DNA of 27,994 nucleotides from a virus. The notes beneath the pieces are model-generated. The model made no database searches. It worked only from the letters and a program-made list of their open reading frames with translations, and had not been told where the DNA came from. Below are positions 803 to 27,994 of the stretch, in pieces. Made by a program: the position numbers and the translations under genes. Each line of letters starts with the position of its first letter. Within the stretch, counting starts at the first letter, position 1. Location of the stretch: the IMG/VR virus record IMGVR_UViG_3300009785_000064, positions 1 to 27,994 of that record; one strand, 5' to 3'.

Positions 803-952
803 ATGTTAAAATTAATATTAGACTTACTTAAAGATAGCCCAGGCGACACCGAAAATATTAGGATAGCTCAAGGAAAATACAAGCTTACTACCGGTGTAAG
901 AGAATCATTTAATCAACTTAAAACCGAAATGTTATGGCAACTGAAAAAATAG
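803..952 (+). CDS. small hypothetical tail-module protein (49 aa)
   Basis: A 49-aa frame starts one base after the stop of the large tail protein and overlaps the first 19 bases of the tape measure gene in another frame. The product is a mix of charged and hydrophobic residues (start MLKLILDLLK, end WQLKK) with no recognised motif. The tight packing, coupling to both neighbours and lack of any other explanation for the 132-base gap argue that it is real. Its place between tail tip and tape measure suggests a tail assembly accessory, but I do not recognise a family. Confidence 0.6.
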   Translation: MLKLILDLLKDSPGDTENIRIAQGKYKLTTGVRESFNQLKTEMLWQLKK

Positions 953-2559
953 GGGTTGAAATTGAGGTTAAATCTAAAGGAGCCGGCGCCGCATTTAGGG
1001 AGCTTTCAGGTGACATAAAAAAGTTTAACAAAGACTTAGATAAAAATAGAGACGGTTTAAAAGCTTTAGACACTATTACCGGTGGAGCTGTTAGTCAAAT
1101 TAAGTCGATGTCTAAAATGTATAAAGGCGCTGTCATAGCTGTTAAAGGTTTTTCTAAAAGTCTAAACGTAATGAAAGGCGCGTTATTAGCTACTGGTATA
1201 GGCGCTTTAGTAGTCGCTTTAGGTACTGTAATCGCTTACTGGGACGATATTAAATCTGTAATGTCTGGCGTCTCTAGTGAATCAAAAGACATACTAGAAA
1301 ATCAAACTAATACAACAAATTTAGCTCAACAAAACCTAGATACTTTATCGTCTTCAGAAAACATATTAAAACAGCAAGGTAAAACCGACAAAGAAATCTT
1401 ACAATTAAAAATAGCTCAGACTGGCGAAACTATTAAAAGTCTTACAGCCCAGTTAGAAACTCAAATAGAACAACGTCAAGCCCAAAAAGAGACCGCACAA
1501 AGACAGCAAAAGTTTTTAGCTGGTTTACTACAGTTAGTTACTGGTCCGGTATCCTGGATATTAAAAGCCTACGACAAAATAACCGGTAGCAATTCGTCAC
1601 AGATATTTGACAAAATGGCTTCAATGATTATAAGTGACGAAGACGAAGACGCTGACGCCGCGATAGAGACCGCTAAAAAACGGCTATTGAATTTGCAAAA
1701 CTCTAAAGCTGGTATGGAGTTAACTATTACTAACAACGAAACAAAAGAACGTCAAAAACGTAAGCAAATAGCCGACGATTTTAGAAAAAAAGATTTAGAC
1801 GCCGATATTAAATTAGCAGCTGACAAATTAGCTTTATTTGTTAAAGATACTGAAATGGTAGCCGGCTTAAGGCGTAGCAACTGGGAGGCTAATTTAGAAG
1901 AGACTAAGGCTAATGACGCTATGCTTTTAGAGTTAGAGAGACAAAGGTTACTAGACCAGGTTAACGAGTCTACGGCTTCGGACTTTATGAAAAAATTAGC
2001 TTTAGAAGAGATTAACGAAAATTTTGACTCTCAAATAGAAGCTTCTAACGAAGAGTACGACGACAGAGAGACGGCTCGCGAAAAGGCGGTCGCTAGTCAA
2101 AAAGTCGATTTAATGAAACAAACTTTCGGAACTTTAGCCGAAGTATTAGGTAAAAATTCAGCCGCCGGAAAAGCCGCCGCTATAGCAGCCGCAACGATTA
2201 ACACCTACCAAGGTATTTCTGAAATTTGGGGTAATAAATCTACATTACCGGCACCGTTTGACGTAATACAAAAAGGTGTAGCAAGTGTAGCCGTTTTAGC
2301 ATCTGGTTTAAAAACAGTAAAACAAATTAAACAAGTCCCTAAGCCTAAAGGAGTCAAAGGCGGCGGCGGTGGTGGTGGCGGTGGTGCGCCTAGCTTTACG
2401 CCTCCAGCTTTTAACGTAGTGGGCGCTGGTGGTACTAGCAATTTAGCTGGTGCTATAGCCGACCAGGAAAACAGACCTAGTAGGTCTTATGTCGTAGCTG
2501 GTGACGTTACTACAGCTCAAGAACTAGAACGTAACACTATTAACGAATCGTCAATTTAA
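934..2559 (+). CDS. tape measure protein
   Basis: This 541-aa protein has the features of a phage tail tape measure. It has a charged N-terminus, a hydrophobic Gly/Ala-rich segment at about residues 80-105 (ATGIGALVVALGTVIAYW), and long Gln/Glu/Lys-rich helical stretches at about 120-200 and 250-390. An Ala-rich helix at about 410-425 precedes a run of nine glycines around residue 475. The C-terminal AYVVAGDVTTAQ-like pattern (here SYVVAGDVTTAQELERN) matches what I remember from flavobacterial phage tape measures. At roughly 1.5 angstrom per residue it would specify a short, about 80 nm tail, if the usual rule holds. It lies downstream of the tail structural genes and is the last gene before the head module. 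Confidence 0.88.
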   Translation: MATEKIGVEIEVKSKGAGAAFRELSGDIKKFNKDLDKNRDGLKALDTITGGAVSQIKSMSKMYKGAVIAVKGFSKSLNVMKGALLATGIGALVVALGTVIAYWDDIKSVMSGVSSESKDILENQTNTTNLAQQNLDTLSSSENILKQQGKTDKEILQLKIAQTGETIKSLTAQLETQIEQRQAQKETAQRQQKFLAGLLQLVTGPVSWILKAYDKITGSNSSQIFDKMASMIISDEDEDADAAIETAKKRLLNLQNSKAGMELTITNNETKERQKRKQIADDFRKKDLDADIKLAADKLALFVKDTEMVAGLRRSNWEANLEETKANDAMLLELERQRLLDQVNESTASDFMKKLALEEINENFDSQIEASNEEYDDRETAREKAVASQKVDLMKQTFGTLAEVLGKNSAAGKAAAIAAATINTYQGISEIWGNKSTLPAPFDVIQKGVASVAVLASGLKTVKQIKQVPKPKGVKGGGGGGGGGAPSFTPPAFNVVGAGGTSNLAGAIADQENRPSRSYVVAGDVTTAQELERNTINESSI

Positions 2560-3380: not shown

Positions 3381-3788
3381 ATGAGCACAGAAAAAACAGT
3401 CTTTACTAAATTGTTTAAAAAAACTAAACAAGCTTTAAAGAGTCAAAAAGTAAGCTTAGCAAATATTGAAGACATAGTATTGCGTACTGACGGCGCTTCG
3501 TCTGACCTCGATGCTTATGACGATATGTTAAACGACTGGGTTATTAGATATATAGATTTACAAAACGAAGTTAATGGTTTGGTTAATATGGCTGACATAG
3601 CAGCAAACAGTATGTTAGATTTAGATAATGTAATGAGCGAATTTAGTACCGCCGCTGAGTCTTTAGGTATTAACCCTTTTCAATTTGACGAATACGCCAG
3701 CGCTACATTAACTTTAGGTAGTTATGAAAACAATATAGAAGATTTAAACGACACTTTAGGAGTGGCTAAAACAATGCAACAATTATAA
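3381..3788 (+). CDS. capsid-module protein A, shared N-terminal motif family (135 aa)
   Basis: This acidic, helical 135-aa protein begins with MSTEKTVFTKLFKK, followed by a basic stretch and QKVSLANIED at about 22-31. The next gene begins MSTENTIFSKLFNK and the gene at 4459 has KKVSLA. It also shares a C-terminal LGIxP motif (LGINP here) with both. The three are therefore probably paralogues. Lying between the prohead protease and the scaffold-like gene, they may be internal or cargo proteins directed into the prohead by the N-terminal segment, which the protease could remove. I know no assigned function. Confidence 0.82.
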   Translation: MSTEKTVFTKLFKKTKQALKSQKVSLANIEDIVLRTDGASSDLDAYDDMLNDWVIRYIDLQNEVNGLVNMADIAANSMLDLDNVMSEFSTAAESLGINPFQFDEYASATLTLGSYENNIEDLNDTLGVAKTMQQL

Positions 3789-3790
3789 AT

Positions 3791-4258
3791 ATGAGTACAG
3801 AAAATACAATATTCAGTAAGTTATTTAACAAAAACGCAATACAGCTAAAAAAGACTGACTTAAAAAAACGAAGCTTAAAGCTAAGTATTGTAGAAGACAT
3901 TAACGATTTAGCAGACAGTTTAAGAGATTCTTATGACGTAGCTTCATATTATGCTAACGGTAGACTAGAAGAGCTTGAAAGCGATTATTTTGACGCTGTT
4001 AATGATATTAAACTAGAAATTGACGAAATGGCTATAAATAGCGCCGTACGTTTTTTACCTGAAGAGGGCGAAAAAATGCAAGCTTTAGTCGGTGAGTTAG
4101 AAAATAAATCTGAAGAGTTAGGCATTTTACCGTCTGAATTAATTCAAGGTTATGACGAAATTACTTTTATGGTAGACAATTATCAGTCTCTTTACGACGA
4201 ACTTATTTCAGCATACAGAGAGACTATACGATCTACTGGTAATAACGATTTTCTATAA
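3791..4258 (+). CDS. capsid-module protein B, paralogue of A (155 aa)
   Basis: The gene starts two bases after the stop of protein A. The N-terminus MSTENTIFSKLFNK is nearly the same as in A, then a Lys-rich stretch leads to RSLKLSIVEDIND at about 27-39. The remainder is acidic and helical, with SEELGILPSEL and several spaced tyrosines near the C-terminus. This matches the domain plan of A and of the protein at 4459: basic leader, a V/L-rich motif, an acidic helical body and LGIxP. The role is inferred to be in the capsid interior or assembly. Confidence 0.82.
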   Translation: MSTENTIFSKLFNKNAIQLKKTDLKKRSLKLSIVEDINDLADSLRDSYDVASYYANGRLEELESDYFDAVNDIKLEIDEMAINSAVRFLPEEGEKMQALVGELENKSEELGILPSELIQGYDEITFMVDNYQSLYDELISAYRETIRSTGNNDFL

Positions 4259-4261
4259 TTT

Positions 4262-4459
4262 ATGGGCACTATAGATACGGTATACAGAAAACTTTATAGC
4301 GACGATACGTCCGTAGAAATGATAGTCGACCGTATGTCTAAAAAAATGGACTTAGAAACGTACCCCTGGGACAAATGTATTGCAGACCAGACAAAAAAAT
4401 ACGGTGCTGAAGCGGCGCCTAAAATTTGCGGTTACATTAAAAATAAATACGGTAATTAA
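4262..4459 (+). CDS. small capsid-module protein with PWDxC domain (65 aa)
   Basis: The 65-aa product has the same kind of N-terminus as its neighbours (TVYRKLY), followed by a compact domain YPWDKCIADQTKKYG and APKICGYIKNKYG. I recognise this PWD-C...KYG...A-K-IC-IK pattern as a small recurring domain of phage capsid-region proteins, sometimes fused to proteases or scaffolds, but not with a known function. The two Cys residues may bind metal or pair. The stop shares one base with the start of the next gene (TAATG), so expression is coupled. Confidence 0.75.
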   Translation: MGTIDTVYRKLYSDDTSVEMIVDRMSKKMDLETYPWDKCIADQTKKYGAEAAPKICGYIKNKYGN

Positions 4460-4905
4460 TGAAAGACTCTATATTTGCAATTTTTAAAAAAGTTAGCGGC
4501 TTTGATAGCTCTAAAAAAGTAAGCTTAGCAGCCTCAGACGAACTAGAATCGGCTATTAACGAAGCTGAGACATATTCAGACGTAATAGACCTAGACGGCG
4601 CTATAAACGGCTCTAAACAGCTTATACAAGCCTATGAAGACTTTAAGCTACAAGCCGAAACTTACTATAATGAGTTTGAAAACGTAGACAACTGGTATAC
4701 GACACTTGAAGACAAAAGAATAGCTTTAGAAGACAAATTAAACAGTTACGAAGCCTTAGCCGACGAACTAGGAATAGACCCTAAAACTTCAGATTCTTAT
4801 GTTTACGGCGACGAATTACTTTTTATGTTAAATGAAGAGTATACTAAGTACAACGAATACTATAACGACATAAATGACGCTTATACAATATCATCTGAAA
4901 ATTAA
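4459..4905 (+). CDS. capsid-module protein C, paralogue of A and B (148 aa)
   Basis: The start overlaps the previous stop by one base. The N-terminus has SIFAIFKKVSG and then SKKVSLAASDE at about 17-27, matching the KVSLA of protein A. The body is acidic, helical and rich in Tyr, Asp and Glu. ADELGIDPKTS near residue 110 matches LGIxP in A and B. Divergence between the three is large, so the duplication is old. A structural or internal head role is inferred from position only. Confidence 0.82.
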   Translation: MKDSIFAIFKKVSGFDSSKKVSLAASDELESAINEAETYSDVIDLDGAINGSKQLIQAYEDFKLQAETYYNEFENVDNWYTTLEDKRIALEDKLNSYEALADELGIDPKTSDSYVYGDELLFMLNEEYTKYNEYYNDINDAYTISSEN

Positions 4906-4922
4906 TCTAAATAAAAATCAAT

Positions 4923-5540
4923 ATGAATACAAGTGAAATGTTAAGCCAAATTAAGACTATTCTAGGCGCGAAAGTAAACCTAGCTCAGCTTATTTTGGAT
5001 AATGGAACCGTCCTGGAAGCTGAAAGCTTTGAAAAAGACGGCGCGGTTTTTATCGTAAGCGGTGAAGACAGAATAAGCCTACCGGTAGGCGAATATACAA
5101 TCGAAGACGGTCGTATGTTAAAAGTTACTGAAGAGGGTATTATAGCTGAAATTGCTAGCGAAGCTGTTAGCGAAGAGTTAGAGACTGAAGAGGTTATTAT
5201 CGAAGCGCCTGAAGAGGTAGCCGAAGAGGTAGCTAAAGTAGTGGAAGCTGTAGTCGAAGTATTAGCACCTATAATGGACGAAATACAAAAAGACGTAGAA
5301 GAGTTAAAAAAGAAATTCGAATCAATTCCAGAAGCTGAAGAAGAAGGCTATAAAGACGGAATAGCAGACGAAAAAGAAGACGAAAAGGAAAAAATGAGCT
5401 CTCAGAAATTAGCAGCTAGAAAACCTTTAAAACATAAGCCGGAAGCTCAAACAGCTAAACCAAATATGGCGTTTTCACAAAACAGAAACCATAACACTAT
5501 ATTAGACAGAGTTATGACTAGAGTATCAAAATTAAAATAA
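4923..5540 (+). CDS. scaffold-like protein, Glu-rich (205 aa)
   Basis: The product directly precedes the major capsid gene. It has a short N-terminal segment with GAKVNLAQ at about 15-22, echoing KVSLA in its neighbours. A beta-like region covers about 25-80. A very Glu/Val-rich helical stretch at about 85-160 is probably coiled coil, and a basic tail (KLAARKPLKHKPE) ends the protein. This architecture, acidic coiled coil with a basic C-terminus next to protease and coat genes, is typical of scaffold proteins. There is no sequence motif that proves it. Confidence 0.7.
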   Translation: MNTSEMLSQIKTILGAKVNLAQLILDNGTVLEAESFEKDGAVFIVSGEDRISLPVGEYTIEDGRMLKVTEEGIIAEIASEAVSEELETEEVIIEAPEEVAEEVAKVVEAVVEVLAPIMDEIQKDVEELKKKFESIPEAEEEGYKDGIADEKEDEKEKMSSQKLAARKPLKHKPEAQTAKPNMAFSQNRNHNTILDRVMTRVSKLK

Positions 5541-6625: not shown

Positions 6626-7180
6626 ATGGCTTGTAGCGCATTAAGTACCGGTAGAGCTCTAAACTGCAAAAATTCAATGGGCGGCTTAAAAGCTGTTTAT
6701 TTTGCAGACTTTGGCTCAATCGAATTAACAGTAACAGCGGGCGTAGTAACCGCTTTTGTAGGTACCCCTAAACTATTCCAGTACGACCTAAAAGGTACGT
6801 CAAATCTCGAACAAACGATAAATTCTAGTCGAGATAATGGAACGGTTTTTTATGAACAAACTTTAAACTTAACTTTGCCTTTTTTAGACGTAGAGACTCA
6901 GCAAGAGTTAATAAAAATAATTGAAGCTAGACCTTACGCTATAGTAGAAGACTATAACGACAACTATCTATTTATTGGAGCTGAAAACGGAACCGATAAT
7001 TCAGGCGGTACTATTGCGACTGGATCAGCAAATGGCGATATGTCAGGCTTTACTATAACTCAGGTCGGAATGGAACGTCTACCGGCGTTTTTTATAGAAA
7101 AGGCTGTAGTAACAGCGGCTATTGAAGCTTCGGCGGCGGCACCTACTCAGATTAACCCTAGTAATACAGTTAATCCGTAA
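6626..7180 (+). CDS. structural protein after the capsid gene, possible tail-tube-like (184 aa)
   Basis: This 184-aa protein follows the coat gene and ends the head transcription unit just before a strong terminator. It begins with a Cys-containing segment (ALNCKNSMGGLKAVYF at about 12-27). Next come FQYDLKGTSNLEQTI, a SSRDNGTVFYEQTLNLTLP stretch and a C-terminal GFTITQVGMERLPAFF pattern. I remember this arrangement from flavobacterial phage proteins encoded directly after the coat gene. Beta-rich content suggests a virion protein, possibly tail tube, neck or decoration. The tail tail is short, disordered-looking and Ala/Pro-rich. Confidence 0.72.
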   Translation: MACSALSTGRALNCKNSMGGLKAVYFADFGSIELTVTAGVVTAFVGTPKLFQYDLKGTSNLEQTINSSRDNGTVFYEQTLNLTLPFLDVETQQELIKIIEARPYAIVEDYNDNYLFIGAENGTDNSGGTIATGSANGDMSGFTITQVGMERLPAFFIEKAVVTAAIEASAAAPTQINPSNTVNP

Positions 7181-10175: not shown

Positions 10176-10294
10176 AAAAAATAGAATATAAAATAAAACC
10201 TAAAAACTTTAATAAGTTAATCTCTTATTTAAAAAAAGACGAAAAACCTTTATTAACGGTAAATAAAATAAAAAATGGCAAATTTAACAAATAA
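10172..10294 (+). CDS. basic microprotein (40 aa)
   Basis: A 40-aa frame starts within the connector stop (ATGA overlap) and ends 20 bases inside the tail fibre gene. It is strongly basic (MKKIEYKIKPKNFNKL..., ending NKIKNGKFNK). No motif is recognised. The four-base coupling to the connector is the main reason to believe it. Confidence 0.5.
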   Translation: MKKIEYKIKPKNFNKLISYLKKDEKPLLTVNKIKNGKFNK

Positions 10295-12197
10295 ATTAAT
10301 TAGTGAAACTTATAAGTCTCTATTAAAAACTGGCGATAATTTACCTTTAAGCGGTTCACCTACATTATTAACAGACGGTGACGGTAACAGCTCAGGCTTA
10401 ACTATTGATACAGCCGGTAACTTTAAGGCAGCTGGAAAAGTTACGTTTGGTACTGGTTTAGAAGACGACGCAACCCAAATAAATATAACTAAATTTGTTA
10501 ATGCGTCTGACGGCATAGAAAATAACGACAACGATACCAGTCTACCAACTTCAGCAGCAGTTAAAAAATATGTAGATACAAACGTAACGGCTCAAGATTT
10601 AGATTTTGAAGGCGATAGCGGTACCGGTGTAGTAGATTTAGATAGTGAAGTTTTTCAGATACTAGGTAACGGCGGTTTAGTTACTGACGCAAATAACAAT
10701 AAGATAACTATAGACGGTAGCTCTTTAGAAAATGCTATAGTTACAAATACCGGTAATATAGCGACGAACGTCACAAACATAGCGACTAACGTAGCTGGAA
10801 TAGCTGGCAATGCCGCTGACATAGTAACAAACGAAGAGGCTATAAGCGAAAACGGTTCTGAAATAGCGTCAAATACGGTTAGTATAAATACTAACACCGG
10901 TAATATTACAACTAACACCGGAAACATAGCCGCCAATACAACTAATATAGCGACCAACGTTACAAATATAGCTAGTAATACTACAGCTATTACTAATAAT
11001 ACGTCAAATATTGCTACAAACGCAACTAACATAGCTACTAACGTAAGTAACATAGCTACTAACGTAGCTAACATAGGAACTAATACAACTAACATAGCGA
11101 CTAATACGGCTACAGGCGTAACAAACGCGGCTAATATAGCAACGAACGTAACTAACATTACGACCAATGCCACTAACATAGCTACTAATGCCGCTGCAAT
11201 AACTACTAATGAAACTAATATTGCGACAAACGCGACGAATATAACTAGTAATACTACGGCTATTACTACTAACGCTGCGGCTATTATTACTAATGCCGAC
11301 GATATAACAGACAACGTTAACGATATTGCACTAAATGCAATCGACATAGCTCTTCGCCTTAAATTAGCTGGTGGCACTATGAATGGCGATATTGAAATGC
11401 AGACTAACGCATTAAAATTAAACGGTTTTAGAATTATAAACACTGGTGCAACCGCTGTAGATTATGACGCAAGAATTGAGCTATTTGGAGTTTCGGCTTC
11501 TAAATTGACTATCGCTAATGCCAACGGTCAAATAGATACGAGTAGTAATAAATTTAATGTTAATGCTAACGAAACAGAAATTAACGGCGGCTTTGTAGGT
11601 ATAAATACAGCATCAGTTAATCCACAAGACCAACTTCACGTTAACGGAACTATAAGAGCCGCTTTGTCTGGGTCGTCAGGTACCGCTACCGGCTGGGCGT
11701 TTAAAGGTATAAACAATAACGGAAACGGAGTTTCTGGTTTATATTATGACAACAATTCTGCGAGAGTAATTTTAAAAAACAGCTCTAACGTTCAGACAGT
11801 AAAAATTTCAGCTGACACTACTGACAGTTATTTTAACGGCGGTAATTTTGGTATAGGAACTACTACTCCACAAAAGAAGTTTGAAGTACAAGGTACAGTT
11901 AGACTTAACACATTAGACATTTTTAGTAGCTTTAATAGTATGTTTTTAAGTAGTGGTTCTGGTACTACAATTTACTTTGGGGAGCCTATTGGTGGTAACG
12001 TTCAGAATATTTCAGCAAGTGGAACAATAAAATCTAGTACGAGTATTCAGTCTGGAAATAATACTTCAGCCGCTTCGGCTGTATTAGCCGGCTCACAAAG
12101 ATATTATGTAAGCGGTAATAATAGCTATTTAGATATGTGTATGCAAACTGGAGCCGCTACGTATGCCTGGGTTAATATTAAAACAAATAGCTGGTAA
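10275..12197 (+). CDS. tail fibre with heptad-repeat shaft
   Basis: The 640-aa protein has the plan of a trimeric phage fibre. The N-terminal part includes SLPTSAAVKKYVDTNV at about 89-104, a familiar fibre motif. From about residue 155 to 358 there is a long run of seven-residue units of the form NIATNVT. A LAGGTMNGDIEM motif follows at about 365. Two GIGTT-type units (GINTASVNPQDQLHVNG, then GIGTTTPQKKFEVQG) sit in the C-terminal part, which probably carries the receptor-binding head. No intramolecular chaperone domain is seen at the end. The seven-residue period with Ile/Val and Asn predicts a triple coiled coil. Confidence 0.88.
   Translation: MANLTNKLISETYKSLLKTGDNLPLSGSPTLLTDGDGNSSGLTIDTAGNFKAAGKVTFGTGLEDDATQINITKFVNASDGIENNDNDTSLPTSAAVKKYVDTNVTAQDLDFEGDSGTGVVDLDSEVFQILGNGGLVTDANNNKITIDGSSLENAIVTNTGNIATNVTNIATNVAGIAGNAADIVTNEEAISENGSEIASNTVSINTNTGNITTNTGNIAANTTNIATNVTNIASNTTAITNNTSNIATNATNIATNVSNIATNVANIGTNTTNIATNTATGVTNAANIATNVTNITTNATNIATNAAAITTNETNIATNATNITSNTTAITTNAAAIITNADDITDNVNDIALNAIDIALRLKLAGGTMNGDIEMQTNALKLNGFRIINTGATAVDYDARIELFGVSASKLTIANANGQIDTSSNKFNVNANETEINGGFVGINTASVNPQDQLHVNGTIRAALSGSSGTATGWAFKGINNNGNGVSGLYYDNNSARVILKNSSNVQTVKISADTTDSYFNGGNFGIGTTTPQKKFEVQGTVRLNTLDIFSSFNSMFLSSGSGTTIYFGEPIGGNVQNISASGTIKSSTSIQSGNNTSAASAVLAGSQRYYVSGNNSYLDMCMQTGAATYAWVNIKTNSW
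10738..11350 (+). repeat. degenerate 21-bp repeats encoding fibre heptads
   Basis: About 29 head-to-tail units of 21 bp, variants of ACTAACATAGCTACTAACGT, encode seven-residue repeats (NIATNVT and relatives). The DNA units differ at synonymous and Ala/Thr/Val positions. The repeats make a long open antisense frame at 10655-11443, which is a by-product. Copy number could change by slippage or recombination and alter fibre length. Confidence 0.85.
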
Positions 12198-21115: not shown

Positions 21116-21469
21116 ATGAATGACAAAAGTGACACTAAAAAAAAGATGCTAGAAGCCCTAGAATTTAATCTAGGTATTGTTTCGCATAGCTGCACAGCTT
21201 GTAACATAAGCCGTCAAACGCATTACCAATGGCTTAAGAATGACGAAGACTACAAAGAAGAGGTCGAAGCTATTACAGAGTCAGCTATAGATTTTGTCGA
21301 GTCTAAACTATATGACCGGATCAAACATAATTGTACGGCTAGTATAATTTTCTATTTAAAGACCAGAGCAAAAAGTAGAGGTTACCAGGAACGGACCGAG
21401 CTTGTAATGCCTGAAGCTAGAAAATTTGAAATAGAAATCTTAGGCTCCATAGATGAAAATACAGACTAA
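21116..21469 (+). CDS. terminase small subunit
   Basis: The 117-aa product has an HTH (FNLGIVSHSCTACNISRQTHYQWLKN at about 18-43) typical of phage small terminase subunits that bind the packaging site. A central acidic helix FVESKLYDRIKHNCTASIIFYLKT at about 61-84 likely mediates oligomerisation. RGYQERTE follows. Its overlap with the large subunit (17 bases) is characteristic. The packaging (pac/cos) site is probably near or inside this gene, but is not identified. Confidence 0.85.
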   Translation: MNDKSDTKKKMLEALEFNLGIVSHSCTACNISRQTHYQWLKNDEDYKEEVEAITESAIDFVESKLYDRIKHNCTASIIFYLKTRAKSRGYQERTELVMPEARKFEIEILGSIDENTD

Positions 21470-22610
21470 CATAGTATTTGATTATTTAAACAAATCTAAA
21501 GACAAAATAAAAATATTCCAAGGCGGTACTAGAAGTGGTAAAACCTATAATATTGTTATGTGGCTAATCTTTGGTTATGCTATGCGTCAAACCGGTAAAA
21601 CTATTACAATCTTTAGGGCTACCTACCCAGCGCTTAGGGCTACAGTAATGAGAGATTTTTTTGATATCTTAGAACTTTACGATTTATATGTAGACAAAGA
21701 TCACAATAAAAGTAATAGCGAATACAGACTAAACGGTAACCTATTTGAATTTGTTAGCATAGATCAGCCTAGCAGACTTAAAGGACGTAAAAGAGACATA
21801 GCCTTTTTAAACGAAGCTAACGAATGCTCTTACGAATCTTATAACCAAATACTGTTTAGGACCCTAGAGGCTGTTATAATGGACTATAACCCTAGCGACG
21901 AATACAGCTGGATATACTCAAAGGTCAAAACTAGAGACGACGCATTTTTTAATATAACAACTTATAAAGATAATCGGTTTTTAAGTCCTGACATAATAAA
22001 AGAAATAGAACGCCTAAGAGATACAGACCAAGACTATTGGCGCGTATACGGTTTAGGTCAAGTCGGTAGAAATAGAGCTACAGTATTTAATTACTTAGAA
22101 GTATCTAAGGTCCCTGAAGAGGCTGAGTTTATAGCCGGCGGCTTAGACTGGGGTTTTGTTAACGATCCGAGCTGTATGGTTTTTTCTTACATATTAGACG
22201 ATAACCTTTATATAGACGAAATGTTTTACCAATACGGAATGACAAATCGAGACATACACAATAAATTTATCGAACTAGGTTTTCCTAGAAATACAGAAAT
22301 ATTTGCTGACTCAGCCGAACCTAAGTCTGTAGACGAATTGTATCGCTTTGGCTGGAATGTCAAGTCAGCTCAAAAAGGAAAAGACAGTATTAATATGGGT
22401 ATAGATTTATTAAAAAGATATAAGCTTCATATTACTAGCCGAAGCTCTAACGCTTTAAAAGAGTTTAAAAACTATAAGTGGCAAGAAGACAAAAACGGTA
22501 CGCTCTTAAATGTACCAATACAAAAAAACGACCATACAATCGACTCGACTAGATACTCGATTATTAAAAAGTTAACCAGACCTAGAGTAGCAAGGTACGC
22601 AATTAGGTAA
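21453..22610 (+). CDS. terminase large subunit
   Basis: The 385-aa protein has Walker A GGTRSGKT at residues 24-31, a Walker B region DIAFLNEANE at about 115-124, and a nuclease domain starting GGLDWGFVNDPS (Asp232), followed by IFADSAEP (Asp286). It is the packaging motor and endonuclease. The C-terminal region ends basic (KKLTRPRVARYAIR). Length is slightly short for TerL (about 400-500). It is followed by the second promoter region and small genes, not by the portal gene. Confidence 0.95.
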   Translation: MKIQTNIVFDYLNKSKDKIKIFQGGTRSGKTYNIVMWLIFGYAMRQTGKTITIFRATYPALRATVMRDFFDILELYDLYVDKDHNKSNSEYRLNGNLFEFVSIDQPSRLKGRKRDIAFLNEANECSYESYNQILFRTLEAVIMDYNPSDEYSWIYSKVKTRDDAFFNITTYKDNRFLSPDIIKEIERLRDTDQDYWRVYGLGQVGRNRATVFNYLEVSKVPEEAEFIAGGLDWGFVNDPSCMVFSYILDDNLYIDEMFYQYGMTNRDIHNKFIELGFPRNTEIFADSAEPKSVDELYRFGWNVKSAQKGKDSINMGIDLLKRYKLHITSRSSNALKEFKNYKWQEDKNGTLLNVPIQKNDHTIDSTRYSIIKKLTRPRVARYAIR

Positions 22611-23606: not shown

Positions 23607-24203
23607 ATGAAAAACATAGAGATCAAAGTACCGGACAGTTTATTTGATATTCCTTTAAAGTTATATCAAGAGTTTATACATTCTTTTGAAGACTACGAGA
23701 ATATGACTGACGAAGACTCAAGCTTAAAAATGCTAGAAATATTTTGTGGCATAAAACCAAAAGAAGGTTTGAAGTATAAGCTAAAAGACGTTACTAGAGT
23801 AGTAAATAAATTAAATAGTATTCTAGCTGAAAAGCCTAGTTTAATTTCTAAGTTTTCTTTAGGTGGCATAGACTTCGGTTTTGTACCAGCCTTAAACGAT
23901 TTAACCTTCGGTGAGTATATAGACGCCGAAACTAATATAAGTGACTGGTCCACAATGCATAAAGCAATGTCTGTTTTATACAGACCTATAGACAAACAGT
24001 ATAAAGACAAATATACTGTAGAAGAGTACGACGGTAACCACTACTCAGAAATTTTAAAAAATATGCCTACTAGCGTAGCTGTATCGGCGCTGGTTTTTTT
24101 TTACGCTTTAGAGACGGACTTATTACAAGCTACTCTGAACTCTACTCTGAAGCAACATCAAATAACACCAAAGAGTTTGGAGCTAACGAAAACTTTAGAA
24201 TAA
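23607..24203 (+). CDS. tail assembly chaperone, unshifted form (198 aa)
   Basis: The 198-aa product starts the tail module upstream of structural tail genes and the tape measure, the usual place of the G/GT chaperone pair. It has an FIHSFEDYENM region, a LYRPIDKQYKD segment at about 131-141 and NMPTSVAVSALVFFYALE at about 151-168, resembling Bacteroidota phage tail chaperones. VFFY is encoded by GTT TTT TTT TAC, a -1 slippery sequence. The tail beyond residue 165 would be replaced in the shifted form. Function is inferred from position, motif memory and the frameshift. Confidence 0.78.
   Translation: MKNIEIKVPDSLFDIPLKLYQEFIHSFEDYENMTDEDSSLKMLEIFCGIKPKEGLKYKLKDVTRVVNKLNSILAEKPSLISKFSLGGIDFGFVPALNDLTFGEYIDAETNISDWSTMHKAMSVLYRPIDKQYKDKYTVEEYDGNHYSEILKNMPTSVAVSALVFFYALETDLLQATLNSTLKQHQITPKSLELTKTLE
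24094..24102 (+). promoter_or_regulatory. probable -1 ribosomal frameshift site
   Basis: Nine T residues are read G-GTT-TTT-TTT-TAC in the chaperone frame. The heptamer T TTT TTT (24095-24101) is a canonical slippery site. A -1 slip continues at 24101 in a frame that stays open for 92 codons and ends 17 bases inside the next gene. A stimulatory RNA structure was not established. Confidence 0.72.
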
Positions 24204-24379
24204 GGTACGGCTGGTATAATAGCCTATACTCGTTAAGCAACGGCGACGTAACTAAAATAGAAGAGGTCTCAGAAAAGCCTTTACATATTTGTCTAACGTT
24301 ATTACAATATAAAAAAGAGCTCGAAGAGGCTAATAATGAAAATATAAGAAACAAGTTTAAAAATGGCAAATCAAGGTAG
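24101..24379 (+). CDS. tail chaperone frameshift extension (GT-like, 92 codons)
   Basis: This frame has no good start of its own and is reached by a -1 slip at the T run. It encodes about 92 residues including GANENFRIRYGWYNSLYSL, SNGDVTKIEEVSEKPLHICL and LLQYKKELEEAN. The GWYNSLYSLSNGDVTK pattern resembles chaperone extensions in flavobacterial phages. The fusion would be about 257 aa (165 + 92), in line with lambda gpGT (279 aa). It fills the otherwise empty stretch from 24204 to 24362. Confidence 0.75.
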   Translation, partial: LRFRDGLITSYSELYSEATSNNTKEFGANENFRIRYGWYNSLYSLSNGDVTKIEEVSEKPLHICLTLLQYKKELEEANNENIRNKFKNGKSR

Positions 24380-26441: not shown

Positions 26442-27994
26442 TGGCTTCTAAAAAAGATTTAACTTTATATGTTAGAAATATTACAAATTTAGACGCGGCT
26501 CAAGTCGAAGACCCTACTAGTGCTACTTTTACTAGAGTAGAGTTTTTTAAAGACGAAAGTGTGCAATTAACCCAGACGGTTAAAAACATAAAAGATCCGG
26601 TTAAGATTTTTACGGCTTTTAGTCAAAAATTTACAGTACCGGCTAGCAGCTCTAATAATAAACTTTTTGGTTATTTCTACGACCATAATATAGGCGGCTT
26701 TGATTCTCGAATTAAAATACCAGCTAGACTAGAACTAAATACATTACCTTTTAAAGAAGGCTACATTAAGCTAGAGGGTAGCTCATTAAAAGACGACAAA
26801 GTACAAGATTATAAAATAACATTTTTTGGTAGTACGGTTACTTTAGCTCAGGTTTTCGGTCAAGATACTTTACGTAATTTAACTTGGCTAAACGCCTGGT
26901 CTTTTGTTTATAACGAACCTAATATAAAAAGCAGACTTACTACTTTTAGTGCAAATAATGTTTCAGCTGTAACCTGGAAAGGTGAAACTATAACCGAAAA
27001 ATTAACGGTCCCACTTATTTCAAATACAAAAAGATATTATTATAAGTCTAACGAACCGCAGTCTCAATACGTAGAGGGTAGCGGTAATTTATATCCTCAA
27101 TCTGGTCGAATTCAAGGCGTATACTGGGAAGACTTAAAACCCACTATACCAGTTACTTTATTTTTCAGAGCTATTGAAGAGGCATATCCGAGCATAGCTT
27201 TTGACTGGTCTAGTGACGGCTTTTTAAACGATATTTATGGTGAAAACTTAAGAGGTTTAAGAATGTTATTAAGTAAAACTCAAGGTAAGGTCACTAATAA
27301 TACAGATAATGAACCTGAAGTTTTTCCTACTATAATTACTACTTTTCCACCTGCCCCACAAGTTACAACTGGCGGGAATTTTAATAATCCAGTTATGGCT
27401 ACTTCTTTTCCGTTGTCTGGTAACATTGTTATTAATATTGATTCTCAAATTGTAAATCTAACAAATAATAGTAATCAAAATGTAATAAGACTTTTTTTAA
27501 CTCCTACTACAGCCGACTTAGGTACGTTGTATAGCGCACAAATTTTATATAATGGTACTGTAGTAGAAGAGGTTAGCCTAGTAAATGGAGTTAGAGTTTT
27601 AACGCCCTCATCAATACAGCAAGTAACCAGCGGTACACTTTCGATTATAATAGCGCCAACAAGTAGCATTACATTCCAGCAAATTAGACTTGAAATCACT
27701 AGAGATCCTGGTGCCTTTGTATTTGTTACAAATGAATTTATAATAAACACTATTCAATTTGTAGCTACACCACTTTTTGAAATCACTACAGAAACGCCTA
27801 CAATGAAAGTATTAGATTTTTTAAAAGGAATTTTCAATATGTTTAACGTAATAGCTGAAGTTAAGCTAGATATAATTACCAATAGAGAGATTATATATTT
27901 AAAAACTTACAATCAGTTTTATTTTCCAGACTCAGGCTATAAACAAACAGACATTACTAAATTTGTAGACACTTCAAAAACTGAAGTTAACGCA
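26441..27994 (+). CDS. large tail protein, N-terminal part (continues at 124-801)
   Basis: The 518 codons in the window are open to the end and continue in frame after the circular join, giving 743 aa. The N-terminal part has TRVEFFKDESVQLTQTVKNIKDP, then FSQKFTVPASSSNNKLFGYFYDHNIGG at about 68-94. FSQ-FTVPAS-NNK is a landmark I associate with flavobacterial phage tail or baseplate proteins. The central region is beta-rich with long Thr/Asn stretches. The stop of the previous gene overlaps the ATG (TAATG). The protein is likely a tail-tip component; enzyme activity is not indicated. Confidence 0.82.
   Translation, partial: MASKKDLTLYVRNITNLDAAQVEDPTSATFTRVEFFKDESVQLTQTVKNIKDPVKIFTAFSQKFTVPASSSNNKLFGYFYDHNIGGFDSRIKIPARLELNTLPFKEGYIKLEGSSLKDDKVQDYKITFFGSTVTLAQVFGQDTLRNLTWLNAWSFVYNEPNIKSRLTTFSANNVSAVTWKGETITEKLTVPLISNTKRYYYKSNEPQSQYVEGSGNLYPQSGRIQGVYWEDLKPTIPVTLFFRAIEEAYPSIAFDWSSDGFLNDIYGENLRGLRMLLSKTQGKVTNNTDNEPEVFPTIITTFPPAPQVTTGGNFNNPVMATSFPLSGNIVINIDSQIVNLTNNSNQNVIRLFLTPTTADLGTLYSAQILYNGTVVEEVSLVNGVRVLTPSSIQQVTSGTLSIIIAPTSSITFQQIRLEITRDPGAFVFVTNEFIINTIQFVATPLFEITTETPTMKVLDFLKGIFNMFNVIAEVKLDIITNREIIYLKTYNQFYFPDSGYKQTDITKFVDTSKTEVNA
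27872..27994. repeat. terminal direct repeat, right copy
   Basis: Identical to 1-123; see the left copy. The frame of the large tail protein is preserved on both copies. Confidence 0.97.

Follow-up and report, generated by a model that had tools for sequence, protein, structure and literature searches.

A conserved nine-T run at the junction of two reading frames in a probable tail chaperone gene of Bacteroidetes phages

The window analysed here is the whole stretch of 27,994 nucleotides of viral DNA, and it contains a gene whose 0-frame meets an open -1 frame at a run of nine T's. A fusion of the two frames is almost certainly made through programmed slippage at this run. It is proposed that one gene would give rise to two tail-assembly proteins. 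Normal expression would yield a G-like protein of 198 aa, and a minority of expression events would enter the -1 frame at the T9 run, resulting in a GT-like fusion of 257 aa with an extra helical domain. The two proteins are likely to be a tail chaperone pair and would probably act with the tape measure protein encoded downstream. From the arrangement of the frames, we infer that both products are made. The main mechanism is, with a probability just above even, RNA polymerase slippage along the nine T's. Transcripts with 10 U's would encode the fusion, those with 9 U's the short protein, and those with 8 U's would lead to an immediate stop. The coordinates of the features are collected in Table 1.

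Table 1. The T9 locus and the neighbouring genes of the window.
Feature	Position	Strand	Description
Large terminase gene	21453..22610	+	Pfam Terminase_3, E 1.5e-21; upstream in 90/127 relatives
0-frame ORF	23607..24203	+	198 aa, predicted short (G-like) product; phrog_32199 (function unknown); homologues; AlphaFold2 pLDDT 90
T9 run, putative slip site	24094..24102	+	9 or 10 T's in 273/273 unique relatives
T_TTT_TTT heptamer, in 0-frame phase inside the T9 run	24095..24101	+	
-1 frame ORF	24101..24379	+	92 codons and TAG (24377-24379); predicted C-terminal (T-like) domain of the 257-aa fusion
Region read in both frames	24103..24203	+	Both frames under selection
+1 frame TAG	24109..24111	+	Any reading minus one T ends after 167 aa
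Next gene, 160 aa	24363..24845	+	phrog_30964; same place in 115/127 relatives
Tape measure gene	934..2559	+	phrog_24676, tail length tape measure protein, E 1.8e-19

An earlier note on this DNA had read GTT TTT TTT TAC at a nine-T run, and this is confirmed in the sequence: the run occupies 24094-24102 and is translated in the 0-frame as V163, F164, F165 and Y166. Residues 1-165 of the 198-aa protein are common to the fusion. The 92-codon -1 frame was correctly described as having no start of its own, with no ATG, GTG or TTG in the -1 ORF of the window. The frame ends at 24379, which accounts for the apparent gap at 24204-24362 and gives a 17-nt overlap with the gene starting at ATG 24363. Joining the frames at the run gives a fusion of exactly 257 aa, where about 257 aa had been proposed. 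A T9 run anywhere in 28 kb of the same composition is not rare (0.63 of simulated windows), and the probability that 92 random codons stay open is P = 0.0002. The run itself is thus unremarkable in an AT-rich genome, but the open -1 frame is improbable by chance. The decisive evidence comes from the relatives.

The first set of relatives comprised 199 distinct loci, and the addition of distant clades brought the number of unique sites to 273. These relatives, which are not independent of one another, reach down to about 25-30% protein identity and belong to a large, mostly uncultured family of Bacteroidetes phages. The run consists of nine T's in 252 of the unique sites and of ten T's in the other 21, with no other length observed. 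In the ten-T relatives, the codon register is shifted and the frames are still not joined. The T_TTT_TTT heptamer is in phase in 196 of the 199 loci of the first set; of the remaining three, two are fragments of contigs and one carries a stop upstream. The -1 ORF is kept in nearly all relatives and is open for 78-91 codons past the run. A remote homologue in a prophage of a bacterial genome (L375:1423-2142; profile E = 1.4e-7) has its T9 in another register, with a WGW-type -1 domain behind it. The exceptional loci include three cut by contig ends (L112, L231 and L356) and one with a stop upstream of an intact T9 (L252). In L364, the -1 domain is displaced to another frame behind an intact T9, which is probably an assembly error.

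Among the carriers of both the T9 run and the -1 ORF are the cultured Nonlabens phages P12024S and P12024L. Their gene pairs P12024S_38/39 and P12024L_40/41 (phrog_32199 and phrog_38404) are direct homologues, but each is annotated as two separate hypothetical proteins, the fusion being unrecognised. No prior report of the T9-run pair was found in the open literature searched. The annotation of P12024S includes a 55-aa ORF with an ATG inside the -1 domain, as would be expected if the -1 ORF were a separate gene with its own start. Such a gene, or frames split through sequencing or assembly error, is nonetheless highly improbable. No ATG occurs in the first 30 codons past the run in 190 of 196 relatives, and conservation of the -1 peptide begins immediately 3′ of the run. 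Furthermore, each of 273 independent assemblies has 9 or 10 T's and keeps the two frames separate. Judged from these relatives, the T9 run with its open -1 frame is neither chance nor assembly error. The conserved run and open -1 frame that the earlier note had suggested seeking in homologues are thus borne out in the 273 unique relatives. Loss of the run, stops in the -1 frame, and eight or ten T's joining the frames were also examined, and none of these overturned the frameshift.

Substitutions between related pairs indicate where one selected frame gives way to the other. Before the run, change is fastest at codon position 3 of the 0-frame (0.30 vs 0.05 at position 2). After the run, it is fastest at position 2, the wobble position of the -1 frame, with values of 0.11 at position 3 vs 0.22 at position 2 over the region 90-160 nt downstream. 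This shows that the substitution pattern flips to the -1 frame at the run and that two selected frames meet there. The 0-frame stays open past the run for a mean of 51 codons vs the 21 expected from the -1 frame alone. As this is longer than the -1 frame forces, the overlap is coding in both frames, and the 0-frame extends 15-87 codons past the slip under selection. The longest 0-frame tails (e.g., L204 and L136) reach up to 87 codons and run parallel to the whole -1 domain. In relatives of this kind, one stretch of DNA, as read from its frames, encodes two proteins.

The 0-frame protein and the -1 domain were folded separately, as two parts. The AlphaFold2 model of the 198-aa protein is confident, and the slip falls within the long helix at its C-terminal end (residues 155-185). 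The -1 domain gives a helical model (pLDDT 82), carries a conserved [WY]GWY motif and has phrog_38404 as its counterpart in P12024S. Searches of Pfam, PHROG, PDB sequences and PDB folds revealed no named family and no solved fold for the 0-frame protein. Likewise, no named family was found for the -1 domain in Pfam, PHROG or PDB sequence searches. A tblastn search of this domain against phage records gave no informative match, and the alignment of distant -1 domains is too diverged for scanning. Several single-chain viral proteins of 226-267 aa in BFVD (e.g., A0A516L611, A0A516L5A8 and A0A6J5N0W0) match both predicted folds, which supports the fusion as a functional unit. These in-frame fused relatives are known from BFVD models alone, where homopolymer miscalls are possible.

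The ends of the window carry an exact repeat of 123 bp (1-123 and 27872-27994), and the record is probably a complete circular assembly, so that the gene from 26441 would run on to 801 over the junction. The tape measure gene lies in the same block as the T9 gene, downstream across this junction, and in 12 relatives it is located about 4.4-4.9 kb downstream of the run. The conserved order is terminase, T9-run gene, the genes at 24363, 24839, 25458 and 26441, and the tape measure gene. The P12024S homologue of the 24839 gene has a weak match to neck or tail completion proteins. A major-tail-like gene sits elsewhere, at 6626 (weak match).

Other parts of the window were also noted. Between a protease-like gene (2592) and a probable capsid gene (5560), the region 3381-5540 holds several small ORFs with similar N-termini (MSTEKTVFTKLFKK..KVSLA, MSTENTIFSKLFNK.., MKDSIFAIFKK..KVSLA). 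They may be internal head proteins whose leader is removed by the head protease. A 640-aa ORF at 10275-12197 contains many degenerate NIATNVTNIATN-type repeats and probably encodes the coiled shaft of a tail fibre; the repeats additionally maintain a long open frame on the opposite strand (10655-11443).

The identification of the frameshifted products as a tail chaperone pair is probable and draws on gene position together with architecture and analogy. The part of the earlier reading that stands is a programmed -1 transition giving a fusion of about 257 aa, conserved in the tail gene block of a large phage family; a chaperone family or fold match did not emerge. The lambda-like place in the tail operon that had been assumed has to be revised, as the gene follows the terminase and is separated from the tape measure gene by four others. 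The lambda gpG/gpGT and HK97-type chaperones likewise comprise a short protein and a longer -1 form that carries a second domain. There, as at the T9 locus, the gene precedes the tape measure gene within a single block and the -1 ORF ends at the next gene. Unlike those systems, the T9-gene protein has no sequence or solved-fold match to them, and its gene does not sit between those for the major tail protein and the tape measure. Its 0-frame continues past the slip under selection, and an invariant T9-T10 run takes the place of their heptamer. Slip heptamers of the lambda type include GGGAAAG. The T9 pair would therefore work like lambda G/GT, but homology to that family is not supported, given the differences in position, sequence and fold.

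The frame transition could also be real with the pair serving as a structural or assembly factor of some other kind in the terminase-to-connector region. The missing chaperone match would be in keeping with such a factor, as would the unusual site adjoining the terminase and ahead of connector-type genes. It is nevertheless unlikely: chaperones are usually encoded in just this way, by a frameshift gene with two products in a block closed by the tape measure gene, and the window has no second frameshift pair ahead of that gene.

The slip itself may be made by the ribosome or by RNA polymerase. Codon phase alone has no power between these mechanisms, because any T9 contains an in-phase heptamer. 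An ordinary programmed frameshift of the lambda G/GT type, made by the ribosome in the -1 direction on T_TTT_TTT, has an appreciable probability, though one short of even. Under it, a precise ratio and two-frame coding would keep the heptamer and the flanking T's in place, with no stimulator needed. Every relative has the heptamer in phase, and ribosomal frameshifting operates in the reviewed tail chaperones where it has been studied (PMC5009743). In E. coli, U_UU.U_UU.Y is among the efficient motifs, with U_UUU_UUC about as efficient for the ribosomes (PMC4066793). Coding also explains part of the T9 run, with L or F after FF in the fusion and V, L or I before it in most relatives.

A T7 is enough for a ribosomal slip, yet no run of 7 or 8 T's occurs in the 273 unique sites, which weakens a ribosome-only view. 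The length of the flanking run would be expected to vary freely around a ribosomal signal, but it remains at 9-10 T's while the register takes phases 0, 1 and 2. There have been about six changes of register or length on the tree of 127 representatives. The residues before the run vary (V, L, I, N, T, S, G, A and F), as do those after it (Y, W, C, S, F and L). Codon 1 lacks a T at position 2 only where codon 4 is TTN (32 vs 0), and by this pairing a T8 never arises. The combination of a variable register and variable flanking residues with a length that is never 7-8 points to a constraint on the run itself.

A further indication comes from the eighth T. A change to C at this position turns TTT into TTC in the 0-frame and TTA/TTG into CTA/CTG in the -1 frame. 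It is doubly silent where codon 4 is Tyr or Trp, as in 94 of the 127 representatives. U_UUU_UUC is used in none of these 94, despite its efficiency for the ribosome, and none of the 127 representatives has TTC as a slip Phe codon. Other conserved Phe columns of the gene switch between TTT and TTC 10-24 times on the same tree.

The region 3′ of the run shows no conserved stimulatory RNA structure of the pseudoknot-free kind in 70 relatives (mean z -0.12, no better than control regions), which also speaks against a purely ribosomal signal. A hairpin in the window, with z = -2.7 over +1..+62, was considered and rejected, as it is not common to the relatives. The direct repeat CTACTCTGAA, which the earlier note had placed at 24131 and 24143 as a possible stimulator, is actually at 24130 and 24142 and is present in only one of the 273 relatives.

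In bacteria, selection against transcriptional slippage usually sets in at nine T's (PMC1088944). Genes with transcriptional slippage include dnaX of Thermus thermophilus with its A9 run, mxiE and spa13 of Shigella, and IS elements (PMC1088944, PMC5009743). The T9 locus shares with them nine identical A's or T's, a conserved run length, avoidance of such runs elsewhere in genes, and a stop soon after the run in one alternative frame. It differs in being a gene of a phage tail operon, with a ribosomal heptamer also in phase. On sequence grounds, the locus has the features expected of a transcriptional slippage gene.

Avoidance was assessed against synonymous codon shuffles in 612 non-redundant genes, drawn from the window and from related loci. 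In other genes, T8 or longer was seen 8 times vs about 32 expected, and A9 or longer 10 times vs about 46, a strong depletion in every codon phase. The in-phase T_TTT_TTN was mildly avoided (173 vs 200 expected), as ribosomal slippage would also predict. The avoidance of T runs could reflect DNA replication slippage. This gene set contains three T9 runs, one of which lies near the start of a homologue of the 24363 gene (L026:5748-6219; ARAFFLMLETI). The +1 frame stop is a median of 2 codons past the run in relatives, and deletion transcripts would accordingly end at once; the early stop may be a by-product of the conserved TTTAGA.

The preservation of the run suggests the involvement of RNA polymerase instead of, or alongside, the ribosome. 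Polymerase slippage fits the pattern slightly better than ribosomal frameshifting, and both may operate together. The fuller proposition is that this Bacteroidetes phage family sets its tail chaperone ratio by polymerase slippage on T9-T10, with one mRNA pool encoding three ends at 198, 257 and 167 aa, in contrast to the ribosomal frameshifting of other tailed phages studied, and it stands at an even balance of probability.

The analysis provides a probable function for two PHROG families of unknown function that occur in hundreds of marine and freshwater phage contigs. It also corrects the two-gene annotation of the cultured relatives P12024S and P12024L. Should the slip be transcriptional, a recoding event that is widely conserved among tailed phages would have been solved in a second way, like dnaX in Thermus and E. 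coli.
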